From IMG/VR virus record IMGVR_UViG_3300044952_000617, positions 1 through 29,511 of that record: a stretch of DNA of 29,511 bases. One strand, given 5' to 3'. The translations under genes and the position numbers were made by a program. This DNA comes from a virus. This document shows, one piece after another, positions 1-7,852 of this stretch. Each line of letters begins with the position of its first letter. Position 1 is the stretch's first letter. Under the pieces are notes generated by a model, which had not been told where the DNA came from, ran no database searches, and saw only the letters and a list, made by a program, of their open reading frames with translations.

Positions 1-74
1 TATTTGTGATGCTGAGCCAAAGCAAAGATCATACTATAGTAGTTTTGAAGCGAGTTGTGACTCAGCGCCACATA
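1..74 (-). CDS. C-terminal frameshift extension of gp26 (partial, runs off window)
   Basis: In the -1 frame relative to the gp26 reading frame, the minus strand stays open from the T-run at 74-80 to the window edge. It reads YVALSHNSLQNYY followed by SMIFALAQHHK. This is compact, protein-like sequence with no stop, and it resembles the helical C-terminal stretch I associate with gp26/gp51-type proteins of marine T4-like phages (from memory, unverified). No convincing Shine-Dalgarno lies before the only ATG in this frame (positions 32-30), and open sequence continues upstream of it into the T-run, so entry by -1 frameshifting fits better than independent initiation. The product would be a longer gp26 fusion, as in the lambda gpG/gpGT tail assembly chaperones. 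The alternatives are an independent downstream gene starting at 32, or a homopolymer sequencing error. Confidence 0.6.
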
Positions 75-772
75 AAAAAATCTTTGAGATTCGTTAACTC
101 GATACTCCTATCATTACCAAGTTCATTCGTGTATACGATCTTATGATACAGTTTCGGCATCTTCTCAAAGAATTCGCGAATCTTTTCAAAAGAATTGACT
201 GGCAACTGATCCAGAAACTCTTCGAGTTCTTCATCGCTATATTCAGAAGCAGGATAAATTTCTTCTTCTGTCATGATCGTATCGATACAGTTAATAATGA
301 AGAACGTCATCAGATCGACTTCGTTGTCAAACTGTGTAATCTTATCAGTGATGCTCGCACTCGGATACTTCATGATCATTGAAATACTATCAGACAACTT
401 AATCGTCGAATCGACACCTTCTGGCATTTCGACTTCGATCGAATCGAGATTCAGTTCAAAGTTATAAACATTATCGTCTTCGTTATCACGATAAGATAGC
501 TTAACGATGTTATTGACTGATTTCGCACGAAGCTTTAAGAACAAATATTCAAGATCGAAAGTTGTGAGCTTATCGACATTAAAGTCATCGTCTTGCACGC
601 ATAGTCTTAAGATCTGCTTAATGGCTCTGATCACGTCGGTGTCTTCTCCACCTTGTTGTGAAATCAGTAAAATCTTTTCTTCTTTCACCAAGAATGGTCG
701 AAAGAGAATCTTTTTCTTCGAAGAGGGGATCGTCACGTCAAAGAGTGGTTGATCAATTTTTGGTAAAGGCAT
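62..772 (-). CDS. 26: gp26-like baseplate/tail assembly protein
   Basis: This 236-aa acidic protein resembles the T4 gp26 family (Pfam T4 baseplate protein type); T4 gp26 is about 208 aa. The N-terminus MPLPKIDQPLFDVTIPSSKK and the following FRPFLVKEEKILL segment match the family opening, where a short beta element precedes an all-helical body. The rest is Glu/Asp-rich helix, notably EEELEEFLDQLP-like sequence near residue 180. In T4, gp26 is needed for hub assembly but is hard to find in the finished baseplate, which suits a chaperone role. The start at 772 has a strong Shine-Dalgarno (AGGAGA, plus-strand positions 780-785). It is the last gene seen in the minus-strand operon, 23 bases after gp54. 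The ORF ends four codons after a T7 slippery run, so two products are likely. Confidence 0.75.
   Translation of the reverse strand: MPLPKIDQPLFDVTIPSSKKKILFRPFLVKEEKILLISQQGGEDTDVIRAIKQILRLCVQDDDFNVDKLTTFDLEYLFLKLRAKSVNNIVKLSYRDNEDDNVYNFELNLDSIEVEMPEGVDSTIKLSDSISMIMKYPSASITDKITQFDNEVDLMTFFIINCIDTIMTEEEIYPASEYSDEELEEFLDQLPVNSFEKIREFFEKMPKLYHKIVYTNELGNDRSIELTNLKDFFMWR
74..80 (-). other. Candidate programmed -1 ribosomal frameshift site (T_TTT_TTT)
   Basis: The minus strand reads GAT TTT TTT ATG TGG CGC TGA in the gp26 frame, so the seven Ts form a canonical X_XXY_YYZ slippery heptamer four codons before the gp26 stop. Slipping back one base gives TAT GTG GCG CTG AGT and an open frame to the window edge. 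A short stem GAGT-CACA-ACTC (63-52) begins ten bases downstream. It is only 4 bp, so I give it little weight. Position at the very end of the upstream gene and the -1 direction match tail assembly chaperone frameshifts in other tailed phages. Confidence 0.65.
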
Positions 773-795: not shown

Positions 796-2514
796 TTATG
801 CAATTGTGAGCGTACGCAATGTAGGAATAGGAACATCTGTTACGATGGCTTTTTGAAATGTCTCTGGTGGAAGAGGAGAAACAGAGCCGCGAATTCGGCC
901 AGGGAAATCTCCTATAATCGTAGTTTCATTTGTTAGATCTGTCAGTTCTAGACTTGAATTTAAAGTAGCCAATGTACTTCCAGCGCTGCCGGCAGTAAAA
1001 ATTCCGTCTGAATTTCTTCCGGTATCTGTTACAATAATTTGATCTTTAAACGACTTATCATCTTTATTGTTTTTTGGCGGAATTCTATTGATTCGAAGGT
1101 CTGTAAAAGAGAACGTGATGTTCAGCTTCATGAGAGTGTTTTCTTCGCTCCATGACATATTCATGCTTTGTATTCCAGTGGGAAACACGTCATATATATT
1201 GTATGTCATGACTTGATTCTGAGATCTGTCATATACGAATACGTTTACATTCGGACACGAGTACGTATCTTTATATGCGATCTCGTAAGGTTTTCTTCCG
1301 TTGGTATCATTATTCATATTCGCGCCACCAAAAGAGTCGCGATTGACGATTAGATTTAACCACTCTTCGAAGTATTCTACAACTAAAGCCTCTTTATCGA
1401 CGATAAATTGTAAAGTAAAGTCGCCGACGTTTACACCATATGCAACGTTCTCGACTGGACCAAATCCATATCTTCGAATGTTTTGCTCTTGTAAAAGATT
1501 TACAGAAGGAAGAACCACGTTATCGCATCTCATCGTAAGAAGAGAATCGAGATTCTGAGCACTAAATTTTGATCTTGTCCATAACATCGGAGCAAAGACT
1601 ACTAAGAAGCTATGAGTAGGAAGTACGCTATCAGCGCCAGAAACTTCGGCTCGGAATCTACCGATATTAAATGTGCCTTTAGTACGTTCACCTGTACTGA
1701 AGGCTGAATCAACAGTTATAGTATCTTGTTGTAAATTGTTATTAATACTCTTGTCAATTTCAACCTTCGCGCTTTTTGTTGTTTTGATAGTATTTGTATT
1801 TTTATTCGTTTTACCATTTTTACCAGAACTTCCAATTCTGCCTTGTTCTTCAAGTCGTTGTAATCTTTCACTGCGATTCTTTATAGTTTCTTGAGTGTGT
1901 GGTGTAACACTATTGTATCTTCTAACATCCAGCGTATCATTAGCACGGCCCTGGGCCACAGCGGCACTTTTCTTCTGAGCTTCGTTTATTTTCTTTTGTT
2001 TTTCTAGTGCTGTACCGCTGCCGGCCCTGATCTGACTGATCTCTGTCTTGAGAGCTGCTTGACGTTTTGCGGTAATTGCTGCTTCTTTAACGCGATCTGC
2101 CTCATTTAATCTAACAGCGCGCTGTCCTACTGTCTCTTGCTTAGCCGGCGCGGCTTGTTGTTGTTTAGTTGGAGCAGCAGGTTTTGCTGCGGCCGGTTTT
2201 GCGGTTGAGGGTGGTCGATTATTTTGTTCTTGTTTAGGAGAGACAGCTCGTTGTTGTCTAGTTGGAGCAGCAGGTTTTGCAGTTGGTGCTGCTGAAGTTG
2301 ACAAAGAAGGTACAACCGAGCTGACTTCTTGACTAGGAGATATTGCGTTAGTTGTGCTACTAGGTGGGACAACAATAGTTCTCGATCCGCCGCTGCGGAC
2401 AGTGGTACTATCTGATGTTGTTTCAGTTATTGACCTTGCATCTTGCGTTACGCTTCGATCAGATCTTTGAATTTCTTGAGTATAATTTGTACCTGTTACT
2501 ATTGGAGATGCCAT
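796..2514 (-). CDS. 54: gp54-like baseplate tail-tube initiator with disordered N-terminal extension
   Basis: This 572-aa protein has two unlike halves. From about residue 280 (FNIGRFRAEVSGADSVLP onward) to about 490 it has the tail-tube fold pattern of the T4 gp19/gp54 group: a first strand after RF, LLTMRCDNVVLPSVNL, a YGFGPVENVAYG loop, FTLQFIVD, FEEWLNLIVN, and a final strand containing NITFSFTDLRI. T4 gp54 (320 aa) sits on gp48 and starts tube polymerisation. Context with gp26, gp48 and gp53 favours gp54 over the main tube protein gp19. Residues 1-280 are Ser/Thr-rich, then Pro/Ala/Lys/Gln-rich with a duplicated AKPAAPT-QQ unit, and look disordered. The start overlaps the stop of the upstream gene (TAATG), implying coupled translation. 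Identity of the tube domain is fairly secure; the gp54 label is inferred partly from neighbours. Confidence 0.65.
   Translation of the reverse strand: MASPIVTGTNYTQEIQRSDRSVTQDARSITETTSDSTTVRSGGSRTIVVPPSSTTNAISPSQEVSSVVPSLSTSAAPTAKPAAPTRQQRAVSPKQEQNNRPPSTAKPAAAKPAAPTKQQQAAPAKQETVGQRAVRLNEADRVKEAAITAKRQAALKTEISQIRAGSGTALEKQKKINEAQKKSAAVAQGRANDTLDVRRYNSVTPHTQETIKNRSERLQRLEEQGRIGSSGKNGKTNKNTNTIKTTKSAKVEIDKSINNNLQQDTITVDSAFSTGERTKGTFNIGRFRAEVSGADSVLPTHSFLVVFAPMLWTRSKFSAQNLDSLLTMRCDNVVLPSVNLLQEQNIRRYGFGPVENVAYGVNVGDFTLQFIVDKEALVVEYFEEWLNLIVNRDSFGGANMNNDTNGRKPYEIAYKDTYSCPNVNVFVYDRSQNQVMTYNIYDVFPTGIQSMNMSWSEENTLMKLNITFSFTDLRINRIPPKNNKDDKSFKDQIIVTDTGRNSDGIFTAGSAGSTLATLNSSLELTDLTNETTIIGDFPGRIRGSVSPLPPETFQKAIVTDVPIPTLRTLTIA
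2158..2280 (-). repeat. Direct repeat in gp54 N-terminal region
   Basis: A 30-bp unit at 2158-2187 recurs at 2251-2280 with one mismatch, offset 93 bases (31 codons). It encodes the AKPAAPT-QQ segments of the Pro/Ala-rich region. In-frame duplication of a disordered linker is the simplest reading. Confidence 0.75.
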
Positions 2515-3600: not shown

Positions 3601-4896
3601 ATGGCACTTATTAGAGTAAATATCGACAGTTTCAAAAGAGATGCTGGTGGGCTTGTAAATAGAACGCTTCGAAATATTACTAATAAGCTCGAAGATAAAC
3701 TTGAAAATGCTGTTGAAGATCTTTTTTCCAAAGCGTTAAAGAAGGTAGGTTTTTCTGATAGAATTGCTGCAGAGCTTTCCGCAAGATTCGGAGATTCTTT
3801 GACTGTTGGTCTCGAAGACAAGTATTTTCAGACGTTTACAAGTGAAATGAAGCGGGCTTCTTGTGCCGACATTCGTAATAATTTCAATCCTCAAGGTGGT
3901 GATCTTACCGGTGCTTCTCCTAACGCCGAAACATATGTTGATGCTATTCAACGCGCTTCGAATAAGATTGGTTTTGGCGATTTGCCTTCAATGCAGTTTC
4001 CTGATCATATCAGTGAAAAATATTATATGGCATTTAAATTTAAGCGCTATGCCCGGCCTTCTCCTCAAACCGTAGCAAAGCTTGATTTTGTACAAGCATT
4101 TGCTCTTCCTCTTCCAAAAGGCATAAGAGAAACTTTCAGTATTAGTGTTAGCGAAGGATCACAAGGACTGCTAGGTGGAGTCGCAGATGTCGCGCAATTA
4201 GGACTCTCCGGAGGACTGACCGCTCAAAGAGCAACCGACGCTACAATGGCACTTGCTTATGGTGCGATGGTTCAGGCAGCAGGAGATATCGGTAGTGCTA
4301 TATCACAAGGAATTGGAGCTGTTCCAAATCCTCATATTCAAGCATTGTTTAGCGGAGTTCCTCTTCGTGAGCACCGATTTGAATGGACTTTTGCTCCTCG
4401 AAATCCGAATGAAAGCCAACAGTTGATGAATCTGTTGAAAGCAATGAAAGCTTATGCTTTACCATCATACAGCAGTCTAGGTACTGCGGCACTCGCTTAT
4501 CCATTCTTATGTCAACCAGAACTCAAGATTGCTGGTACTGCACAGCTAATCAAATTTCAACCGTGTTTAATTCAATCAATCGAACTGAACTACTCTCCGC
4601 AAGGAATTCCTGCATTCTTCGAAGGCACAAGTCATCCTGCGTTTATCGAATGCTCGATGACAATGCTTGAAACACAAATTCAAACATCTCGCGACTATGG
4701 TAGAGAAGGTGGAGATCGCTTAGCTGAGACACGTGAAACTGTATTAGATGGATTACAAAAAGGTATTGATAATATCACCGGCAAACCAGGCAATGAATTT
4801 CGAACTCTTTTAAATGACACCGGAAAAAACATCGACAAATTTATATCCAAACCAACGCCGACTACAGCTTCGCCTAAACAACAAACAGGAAGTTAA
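3601..4896 (+). CDS. 48: gp48-like baseplate tail-tube cap protein
   Basis: This 431-aa protein resembles the T4 gp48 family (364 aa in T4), which caps the central baseplate and receives gp54 before tube growth. Features in order: a short helical N-terminus; a tube-type strand with FALPLPKGIRETFSISVSEG near residue 150; a Gly/Ala-rich helical loop at about 185-240; REHRFEWTFAPRNPNESQQL near 258 followed by a helix; and the closing strands FQPCLIQSIELNYSPQGIPA and SHPAFIECSMTMLE. The last 60 residues are polar and probably flexible. I chose the ATG at 3601 over an in-frame TTG at 3589 because the former has GAGAG five bases upstream and gives the typical MALIRV opening. It leads the plus operon from the divergent late promoter, and gp53 follows after two bases. 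Confidence 0.8.
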   Translation: MALIRVNIDSFKRDAGGLVNRTLRNITNKLEDKLENAVEDLFSKALKKVGFSDRIAAELSARFGDSLTVGLEDKYFQTFTSEMKRASCADIRNNFNPQGGDLTGASPNAETYVDAIQRASNKIGFGDLPSMQFPDHISEKYYMAFKFKRYARPSPQTVAKLDFVQAFALPLPKGIRETFSISVSEGSQGLLGGVADVAQLGLSGGLTAQRATDATMALAYGAMVQAAGDIGSAISQGIGAVPNPHIQALFSGVPLREHRFEWTFAPRNPNESQQLMNLLKAMKAYALPSYSSLGTAALAYPFLCQPELKIAGTAQLIKFQPCLIQSIELNYSPQGIPAFFEGTSHPAFIECSMTMLETQIQTSRDYGREGGDRLAETRETVLDGLQKGIDNITGKPGNEFRTLLNDTGKNIDKFISKPTPTTASPKQQTGS

Positions 4897-4898
4897 AG

Positions 4899-5741
4899 AT
4901 GGCAAGATATTTTGATCGATTTCCAATTGTAGACTATGATGGAAACATTGCCAAGAATATCTTGGCGCGCGTCGATTTTACTGACAAAACGAAAAGAGAC
5001 ATCTATTCTACCTTTCAGTTTACTCTTGAAGAAGGGTTCGAGAGGCCGGATCTCTTGTCTTATAACTATTATGGATCTTCGAAGTTTGATTGGATGATCT
5101 ATCTTACGAATAACATCGTCGATCCTTATTACGACTACTATAAATCTTCAGAAGATTTTAACAGTTACATTGCAACAAAATACGGATCGAATTCAAATGC
5201 TCGATCGATTACTCTCTTCTATCGATTAAACTGGCATGAAGACGAAAGAACTATTACGACTCAACAGTATGATTCTCTTGTTGCAAATGAAACATCGAAC
5301 GCGCAAAAATATTGGAAGCCAAAACTTACAAATACTGGTGCAGTAATTGGTTACGAAAGACTCAAAGAAGAGTGGATAGTATCTACGAATAAAGTATTAT
5401 CATTGTCTCTGACTGTTGCGCCATCAGAATTCGAAGTTGGAGATCGAGTATCTCAAACGAGCACCAGCGCATATGCTACCATCGACTATATTGATCTTGA
5501 AAACAATCGCTTGACTGTAAAACATGTAAGCGGAACGTTTGCAGTGAATGCAGCAGAAGGAATAAGTGAAATAAAGGTATTAAGCCAAAATATACCTGAG
5601 GCCGAAGTTGAATACTGGTATGCAGTGAATGCATATGACGATGAGAAAGAAACAAACGAACTCAAGAGAAACGTAGTTGTTCTCAAGTCTTCTTACTTGG
5701 CAGAAGTAGAAAAACAATTCATACAACAAATAAGCACATAA
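4899..5741 (+). CDS. 53: gp53 baseplate wedge protein
   Basis: This 280-aa protein matches T4 gp53 (196 aa), the wedge subunit that contacts the hub and clamps neighbouring wedges. Residues 63-88 (KFDWMIYLTNNIVDPYYDYY) align with T4 WVLLMCNDNYDPYYGW, the family's most recognisable stretch. The N-terminal MARYFDRFP and DIYSTFQF segments also fit. Relative to T4 there is an extra beta-rich portion at about residues 165-230 (FEVGDRVSQTSTSAYATIDY and following), similar in style to short domains added in gp7 and gp8. A helical C-terminus follows. AGGAAG lies six bases before the ATG. The gene sits between gp48 and the gp27-like hub gene, with one base to the next start. Confidence 0.88.
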   Translation: MARYFDRFPIVDYDGNIAKNILARVDFTDKTKRDIYSTFQFTLEEGFERPDLLSYNYYGSSKFDWMIYLTNNIVDPYYDYYKSSEDFNSYIATKYGSNSNARSITLFYRLNWHEDERTITTQQYDSLVANETSNAQKYWKPKLTNTGAVIGYERLKEEWIVSTNKVLSLSLTVAPSEFEVGDRVSQTSTSAYATIDYIDLENNRLTVKHVSGTFAVNAAEGISEIKVLSQNIPEAEVEYWYAVNAYDDEKETNELKRNVVVLKSSYLAEVEKQFIQQIST

Positions 5742-5742
5742 C

Positions 5743-7032
5743 ATGACTTCGATTAGAGACGGACAGTTTAAACTTAATGAATTCTTATTAATTGATGCCA
5801 CAGCCAAAACTGTTGAATGTGGTAAAGCACTTGATTTGACTCCTGTCTGCGTACAAGCAAACATCTATGAATCTGTACTCAATCCAACTGTGCTCGCAGA
5901 GTTTGAATTCTATGACGCAAAAGGTATGTTTAATCATTTTGTTTTCACAGACAAAAGAATTATAATTGATTTTACGACAGACGAAGAGAATCAAAAATCT
6001 TCTATTCGATATGAATTTTATATCGTATCAGTTGACCCTGTTATTCCTACTAACGACGACAAAGCTGTTGTCTATAAACTTTCATGTGTGACATACGAAG
6101 TATGGAAGTCGGCTACTGTTCGTAACTTACCACTCGTCAGAAAAAAGATAGAATGTGAAAAGATGGTAAAAGCTTATCTTGAAGCAATCGATTCTCAGAA
6201 ACCTTTGTTCGCAGAAAAAACCCGCGGACTACATGCTTTCAACTTTACCGAAAAAACACCAATCGAATGCATCGATCAGATTCGATTGGAATACGCGATG
6301 TCTCAAGAATTTAAAGGTCATGCATTTTACTTCTTTGAAAACAAGTACGGGTTCGTTTTTAAGAGCATGGAAATGCTAATCAAAGAAGGCAAAGAGAATA
6401 TTGGCGATAAGTGTTTCATGCAATCCGGATTAACAAATTTAAATATATCTGGCGCAAAGTGGAGAAACATTCTAGCTACGAAGCTTATTCAAAACGGTAA
6501 TCAAGGGCTTGCAAGAAGAATTGGAGCAGGGAGTAATTTAGTTAAACTCAAGAATAGTGTGACTGGCGAAATCGTTAATTTCCAAACTAACCCCAAAAAC
6601 CTAGAATTTCAAACATTGAATGAAAAATCTGTTTCTTCAAGCTTAAGAACCCAAGATGAAATAGGTAAAGACGAAGGAAATATTCAAATTGTTCCCTTTG
6701 ATCCAAGAATTGAAAACGCAGAACGAGCCGAAAAGAAAAACCAACTACCATATTATATGGCTCACTTCTTAACTACAGTTGCTCACGTTACGATTTACGG
6801 TGATAGCGCTATTTCTGCCGGTGATGTCATTAAGTGTCAATTTCCTGAACCGAGCGGTATTACAAGAGGAGAAACATCTCCAGTAAATGAAGACAGTACG
6901 ATGACGACTGGTAATTACATCATCGCAAAGTGTCGTCATATTCTGACTTTTAACGAAAAAGCAGAGTATATGCAAGCTTTCGAGCTTGTGAAAGATGGTA
7001 TTGGTGGATTGCCACAAACACACGCAAATTAA
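5743..7032 (+). CDS. 27: gp27-like baseplate hub protein
   Basis: This 429-aa protein is probably the counterpart of T4 gp27 (391 aa), the trimeric hub ring that holds the gp5 spike and continues the tube channel. The N-terminal segment contains VQANIYESVLNPTVLAEFEF and then FYIVSVDPV and VVYKLSCVTYEVWKSA, the first tube-like domain of gp27 proteins. A helical piece (EKMVKAYLEAI) leads into a second domain with KTPIECIDQIRLEYAM and FYFFENKYGFVFKSMEML. The C-terminal region (YMAHFLTTVAHVTIYGDSAISAGDV) fits the closing tube domain. Immediate linkage to a gp5-type spike gene supports the assignment. The start follows gp53 by one base. Confidence 0.75.
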   Translation: MTSIRDGQFKLNEFLLIDATAKTVECGKALDLTPVCVQANIYESVLNPTVLAEFEFYDAKGMFNHFVFTDKRIIIDFTTDEENQKSSIRYEFYIVSVDPVIPTNDDKAVVYKLSCVTYEVWKSATVRNLPLVRKKIECEKMVKAYLEAIDSQKPLFAEKTRGLHAFNFTEKTPIECIDQIRLEYAMSQEFKGHAFYFFENKYGFVFKSMEMLIKEGKENIGDKCFMQSGLTNLNISGAKWRNILATKLIQNGNQGLARRIGAGSNLVKLKNSVTGEIVNFQTNPKNLEFQTLNEKSVSSSLRTQDEIGKDEGNIQIVPFDPRIENAERAEKKNQLPYYMAHFLTTVAHVTIYGDSAISAGDVIKCQFPEPSGITRGETSPVNEDSTMTTGNYIIAKCRHILTFNEKAEYMQAFELVKDGIGGLPQTHAN

Positions 7033-7042
7033 AGGATGATAG

Positions 7043-7852
7043 ATGCAAACCCCAAGATTCTTTGAAGGTATCGTAGCAGAAGATCCGACTTCAGATCTCG
7101 GATTAGAAGCAGATGCGCCGCAGACAGGTAGAGTATTGGTCAGAGAAATTTTAGGACATTCCGATAGAGTGAACTCCGAAGATCTTTTGCCTGCTTATAT
7201 TATGATGCCAACTACAAGTGCCGGTGTTTCAGGCATCGGACTTAGCCCGACAGGTCTCTTAAAGGGATCTCGAGTGATGTGTATGTCTCTTCCAGAACAA
7301 GCTGCAGCATATATTCTCGGCGTATTAAACTATGCTCCTGAAAATAATCATAGCGTATCTTCATATGCTCGAGGACAAGGCGAACCAGAATTGAAGACAC
7401 AAAATCGTATTAAAGGAGAAGGCGCAACAGTTATTGAACCTGCTTCGAAGTATAAAGCGAGATATCCTTTCAATAATACAATGACTACTCGTAGTGGCCA
7501 TATCTTAGAATTTGATGATACTCCAGGATCAGAACGTGTACAAATCTTTCACAAGTCAGGATCTTATATCGAGATCTTACCAGATGGCACGATCGTCACA
7601 AAGTCTGTAAAAGATCATATTCAGTTGGCATTCGGTAACATTTCTATCTTCAATCAAGGCGATGAAAAAGGCGGTAAGGATATTGAAATCACCTCGAACC
7701 AAGGCGGAATAGCCATTACAGCACAACAAGATGTCACTGTTTATGCCAATGAAGGCAACGTAGGAATTTTTGCAAACAACGGTACAGTTTCAATTACATC
7801 AAAATCTGGAGCGGTGGATATTCAGGCTGCAATTGTTGGAATCAATGCATGA
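7043..7852 (+). CDS. 5: gp5-like central spike protein without lysozyme domain
   Basis: At 269 aa this is less than half of T4 gp5 (575 aa). Residues 1 to about 110 form an OB-type domain (FFEGIVAEDPTSDL, GRVLVREILGHS, GSRVMCMSLPEQAAAYILGV). A linker (GEGATVIEPASKYKARYPFN) leads to a VgrG-like needle from about residue 152: HILEFDDTPGSERVQIFH, SGSYIEILPDGTIV, then short repeating beta strands (DIEITSNQGGIAITAQQ, VTVYANEGNVGIF, VSITSKSGAVDIQ) that fit a triple-stranded beta-helix. The T4 lysozyme domain between OB and needle is absent. The spike punctures the outer membrane at infection. AAAGGA (7031-7036) precedes the ATG; the stop overlaps the next start (ATGA). Confidence 0.85.
   Translation: MQTPRFFEGIVAEDPTSDLGLEADAPQTGRVLVREILGHSDRVNSEDLLPAYIMMPTTSAGVSGIGLSPTGLLKGSRVMCMSLPEQAAAYILGVLNYAPENNHSVSSYARGQGEPELKTQNRIKGEGATVIEPASKYKARYPFNNTMTTRSGHILEFDDTPGSERVQIFHKSGSYIEILPDGTIVTKSVKDHIQLAFGNISIFNQGDEKGGKDIEITSNQGGIAITAQQDVTVYANEGNVGIFANNGTVSITSKSGAVDIQAAIVGINA

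Follow-up and report, generated by a model that had tools for sequence, protein, structure and literature searches.

The gp26 homologue encoded on the minus strand at the edge of the virus record analyzed here (the window, which is the entire 29,511-base record) very probably gives rise, by -1 frameshifting near its 3' end, to both a short and a long tail assembly chaperone. The support comes from the sequence, namely the slippery site, its conservation, coding selection in the -1 frame, a covarying hairpin, and the homology of the conceptual fusion to T4 gp51; the occurrence of the shift, its rate, both products, and a role in binding the tape measure protein are what we infer. Tail assembly chaperones of T4-like phages, T4 gp26/gp51, were identified by Vladimirov, Gautam, and Davidson (Virology 2022, 566:9-15; cited in PMC10885494 and PMC12846349), and thus, as far as the citing papers convey that study, the core chaperone idea is already known. 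What is documented in detail here is the RNA signal and its conservation, and the stimulators involved, a hairpin and a Shine-Dalgarno (SD)-like element, may be previously undescribed.

The gp26 gene and its slippery heptamer

The gp26 homologue (62..772, minus strand), a protein of 236 aa and the putative short tail assembly chaperone (TAC-N), matches PF12322 T4_baseplate (E 4.5e-55) and phrog_150 (E 4.6e-60). On the minus strand its 3' end reads GAT TTT TTT ATG TGG CGC TGA, and direct reading confirms the heptamer T_TTT_TTT in phase with the gp26 codons (74..80, minus strand), as proposed in the initial annotation, and the heptamer is conserved in relatives. That annotation placed it four codons before the stop; it is indeed near the stop, with three sense codons (ATG TGG CGC) between it and the zero-frame TGA (62..64, minus strand), which, according to fold prediction, lies within the 5' arm of the core of a downstream hairpin. 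Long T runs are under-represented in the window, TTTTTTT occurring four times in 29.5 kb versus the 18.8 expected from dinucleotide shuffles. The concern that the run may contain eight Ts, due to an assembly error, was not borne out, exactly seven Ts being retained in independent contigs of the window's clade. Two further contigs, L002 and L010, are identical to the window over 4,000/4,000 aligned bases, and both reach past its edge. Chance or assembly error is, for practical purposes, excluded as the origin of the heptamer arrangement. Matches were found neither for gp26 against plasmids nor, by megablast, for window positions 1-25000 against phage records.

Conservation of the site among relatives

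Four viral-contig searches, combined with annotated phages, provided 256 complete gp26 loci; the gp26 of Caulobacter phage Cr30 used as the sole query returned two contigs only. An in-phase slippery heptamer is found near the gp26 end in 251 of the 256 loci, a result in favor of the initial annotation, which had proposed aligning the T run across related genomes. The heptamer is TTTTTTC in 143 of these loci, TTTTTTT in 106, TTTTTTA in one, and in one more, Rhizobium phage RHph_I1_18, it was scored as TTTAAAC, an overlapping T_TTT_TTA also being present there. In the 94 divergent representatives, the codon preceding the two Phe codons always ends in T (94/94 vs 61.5 expected from the codon usage of the same genes), and the first Phe codon is always TTT (94/94 vs 66.5 expected on the same basis). 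Where loci could be read to the extension stop, the extension is 55-66 residues long in all but one. Among the named phages, the cyanophages S-ShM2, P-SSM2, and S-SM1, Caulobacter phage Cr30, and Sinorhizobium phage phiM19 possess an in-phase T_TTT_TTC or T_TTT_TTT followed by a homologous -1 extension, and six more (Stenotrophomonas phages Marzo and DLP_6, Xanthomonas phage X1, Acidovorax phage ACP17, Ochrobactrum phage OC, and Aeromonas phage PX29) all possess TTTTTTC or TTTTTTT along with a -1 extension.

The five loci without an in-phase heptamer are L031, Stenotrophomonas phage IME-SM1, two Ackermannviridae, and Vibrio phage D533. The latter three (L091, L092, and L093) are distant loci from which the canonical heptamer is absent; their gp26 ends in CTT TTC or ATT TTC, and an open -1 frame of similar size follows. 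In IME-SM1 (L089, 3468-4310), gp26 reads as 280 aa, with the extension in another frame. A +1 shift was considered for this phage and rejected, as its close relative Marzo has one extra T and the usual arrangement with T_TTT_TTC, making it likelier that the IME-SM1 record carries a single-base indel. L031 (from 4001), with an earlier stop near the gp26 end, and a further irregular locus, L070 (3061-3762), with a stop within the extension, may be defective copies or sequence errors.

The extension in the -1 frame

From the heptamer to the window edge, no stop interrupts the -1 frame on the minus strand, in agreement with the initial annotation, and the window holds the first 24 of 61 codons of the predicted extension (3..74, minus strand). 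Reading leftward, as that annotation had recommended, places the remainder in L002, with no stop just past the edge: 61 codons are open after the slip, encoding YVALSHNSLQNYYSMIFALAQHHKYSITEIENLIPYERDLYVDLLMAHLEEQKQEIESRRK, followed by a stop. A comparison of the extension with T4-like proteins had also been called for, and it succeeded, the extension alone matching phrog_634, 'baseplate hub assembly catalyst' (E 6.7e-24), as well as the C-terminus of T4 gp51.

The strongest competing explanation treats the extension as a small gene in its own right, read by ribosomes that terminate at the end of gp26 and then reinitiate, with the T run being incidental. An ATG is indeed present within the first 20 extension codons of 84/94 representatives, and in P-SSM2 and S-ShM2 it is found a few bases past the gp26 stop, with a separate gene annotated in GenBank, 'gp51' being the name given to this small gene in cyanophages. 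However, a separate gene would need neither the heptamer nor its phase to be conserved, and both are; the region has no ATG at all in 10/94 representatives; T4 has both parts joined in a single ORF; and the codons ahead of the ATG are under protein selection in the -1 frame. As to this last point, between the heptamer and the first ATG, pairwise single-base codon differences within the window's clade amount to 1927 synonymous versus 112 nonsynonymous in the -1 frame, and to 471 synonymous versus 1712 nonsynonymous in the zero frame, where stops are found in 38/38 sequences; since the sequences are related and were counted pair by pair, the tallies indicate direction rather than numbers of independent events. 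Both frames other than -1 are mostly nonsynonymous and broken by stops. These patterns argue that the segment upstream of the ATG is likely translated within the fusion, and not solely through an internal start, and they point to protein selection on the C-terminal domain in the shifted frame. We thus consider the separate gene very improbable as the full explanation, noting that reinitiation and frameshifting could coexist.

Signals around the heptamer

The initial annotation was correct as to the heptamer and missed a hairpin located downstream, inside the window. This predicted stimulatory hairpin (5..72, minus strand), supported by fold energy, covariation, and a synonymous-recoding control, consists of a 9-bp core that begins 7 nt past the heptamer (66-58 paired with 19-11) and of outer arms (72-68 paired with 9-5), with a minimum free energy of -22.5 kcal/mol (z -4.0) for the window sequence. 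Among 24 window-type representatives, two-sided changes are seen in 6 of the 14 pairs, a figure equaled in 0 of 500 shuffles, slid pairing registers pair far less than the hairpin register does, and RNAalifold predicts the same core. Synonymous recodings were chosen as the control because both arms encode conserved residues, and the natural sequences of these 24 representatives are more stable than their recodings (mean z -4.2). The hairpin seen in P-SSM2-type phages is not the same one; it is more local, and the covariation support for it is weaker.

An SD-like element, GAGGG or GAAGG, ending approximately 6-10 nt before the heptamer, is present in most representatives outside the window's clade, including S-ShM2, P-SSM2, S-SM1, and Cr30. 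In the Glu-Gly pair, the Glu codon is GAG in 54/68, compared with 21 expected. In contrast, a well-placed element upstream of the heptamer is absent from all seven representatives (7/7) of the window's clade. At first, TTTTTTT and the SD-like element seemed strongly to replace one another (Fisher 6e-10), but this trade-off was dropped after a tree-based check; on the tree, the last base of the heptamer changes only about four times, and independent pairs provide no support for a trade-off. The E. coli dnaX cassette consists of an SD, an A-rich heptamer, and a hairpin (PMC3711429). Relatives outside the window's clade resemble it in possessing the SD-like element and the heptamer in most cases and a local hairpin in many, whereas the window's clade shares with it the heptamer and the hairpin and lacks the SD-like element at that spacing. 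A T-run -1 frameshift, at a GTTTTT motif, is also known for the tail assembly chaperone of Vandenendeviridae, a different phage family, the likeness being one of motif (PMC12846349).

These signals also bear on a second alternative, that the frame is changed by RNA polymerase slipping on the T run and not by the ribosome. A seven-T run is what such slippage would act upon, but runs of six or seven T are short for polymerase slippage, and 143 of the 251 loci have only six Ts followed by a C. In addition, both the SD-like element of the relatives and the covarying hairpin of the window type, whose distance from the heptamer is as expected for a ribosomal shift, speak against it, making polymerase slippage more improbable still than a separate gene. 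Least credible of all is an assembly error or a decaying gene, as, despite the stops noted above in L070 (inside the extension) and L031 (near the gp26 end), the same arrangement recurs in many independent contigs and in cultured phages, and the -1 frame is under strong purifying selection.

Relation to T4 gp26 and gp51

T4 gp26 shares PF12322 with the window protein, and T4 gp51 comprises PF12322 and the same C-terminal domain, the family covering T4 gp26 and residues 1-201 of T4 gp51. When the conceptual fusion was made into a profile, its match to T4 gp51 ran past the junction and scored 42.4 bits (E 8.8e-13 for 300 proteins), compared to 14.9 bits for the gp26 portion and 24.4 bits for the extension alone. 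As the fused profile matches across the junction, T4 gp51 can be described as a gp26-like domain and an extension in a single ORF. The suggestion of the initial annotation that T4 may encode only the extra domain separately thus fails, gp51 being the equivalent of the whole long form. The two forms come from two genes in T4, and from one gene and a predicted frameshift in the window virus; the T4 gp26 end reads GAG TTC TTT GAG and lacks the heptamer that the window gp26 has. According to PMC10885494, some T4-like phages do without frameshifting and instead carry two genes, a short one and a long, fused one.

We lean toward the view, with appreciably less confidence than in the frameshift itself, that gp26 commonly comes with a full cassette of heptamer and stimulators in the T4 superfamily outside the T4 group, that the stimulators are lineage-specific, and that the two genes of T4 are derived, through duplication and fusion. 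In this view, the P-SSM2-type group would combine its local hairpin with an SD-like GAGGG, and the window's lineage would have no SD and would use a covarying hairpin of longer range, within which the gp26 stop codon lies.

At the structural level, the AlphaFold model of gp26 is confident (pLDDT 86). A search of the predicted fold against the PDB gave nothing significant; 2ob9, the tail assembly chaperone of HK97, came up as a weak, suggestive match (E 1.9, probability 0.30, TM 0.46 by target). No match to the gp26 sequence was found in the PDB.

Gene neighborhood

A tail tube gene is the usual neighbor of a tail assembly chaperone gene, and the gene directly upstream of gp26 (796..2514, minus strand, 572 aa) is a tail tube homologue (phrog_45 tail tube, E 1.1e-27). 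The match spans residues 236-500, and the N-terminal part of the protein contains repeats rich in Ala, Pro, Lys, and Gln. On the other side, in at least 77 of 91 representatives, the distance from the extension stop to the start of the following ORF lies between -11 and +6 nt. In L002, the following ORF is a long one of 766 aa (4884-7184), its start and the extension stop overlapping. Its position suggests a tape measure protein; tape measure homology was not detected for it, and no family or phage-record match was found. For this reason, the position relative to the tape measure gene rests on how Cr30 and Rhizobium phage records are annotated, the annotated tape measure gene of Cr30 coming after one small gene downstream.

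Proposed mechanism and implications

The heptamer of the lambda G/GT system differs from that of the window. The two are alike in arrangement, as in lambda G/GT a -1 shift placed shortly before the short form ends likewise adds a C-terminal domain (PMC5009743), and the lambda gene likewise adjoins the tail tube gene. In the mechanism that we propose, most ribosomes would terminate at the TGA, producing the 236-aa short form (gp26, TAC-N), and a minority, held up by the hairpin located 7 nt beyond the heptamer, would slip on T_TTT_TTT, producing a 294-aa long form (TAC-NC) of 233 gp26 residues and 61 more. If the parallel with lambda gpG/gpGT holds, the tape measure protein would be coated by many short molecules and a few long ones, and the added domain of the long form would recruit tail tube subunits. 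Of the initial reading of gp26 as a frameshifted tail assembly chaperone, the site and the extension stand, the function is a probable one, and the chaperone idea itself had already been published.

In a 2016 review, T4 was listed as an exception to the conserved frameshifting in tail genes (PMC5009743). In the data presented here, most of the sampled wider T4 superfamily carries the frameshift site together with its signals. The small 'gp51 hub assembly catalyst' genes would be explained as C-terminal parts of a fusion protein, and many annotations would be corrected by such a reading. The junction, in turn, lends itself to short, well-delimited constructs in which stimulators of two kinds can be measured.
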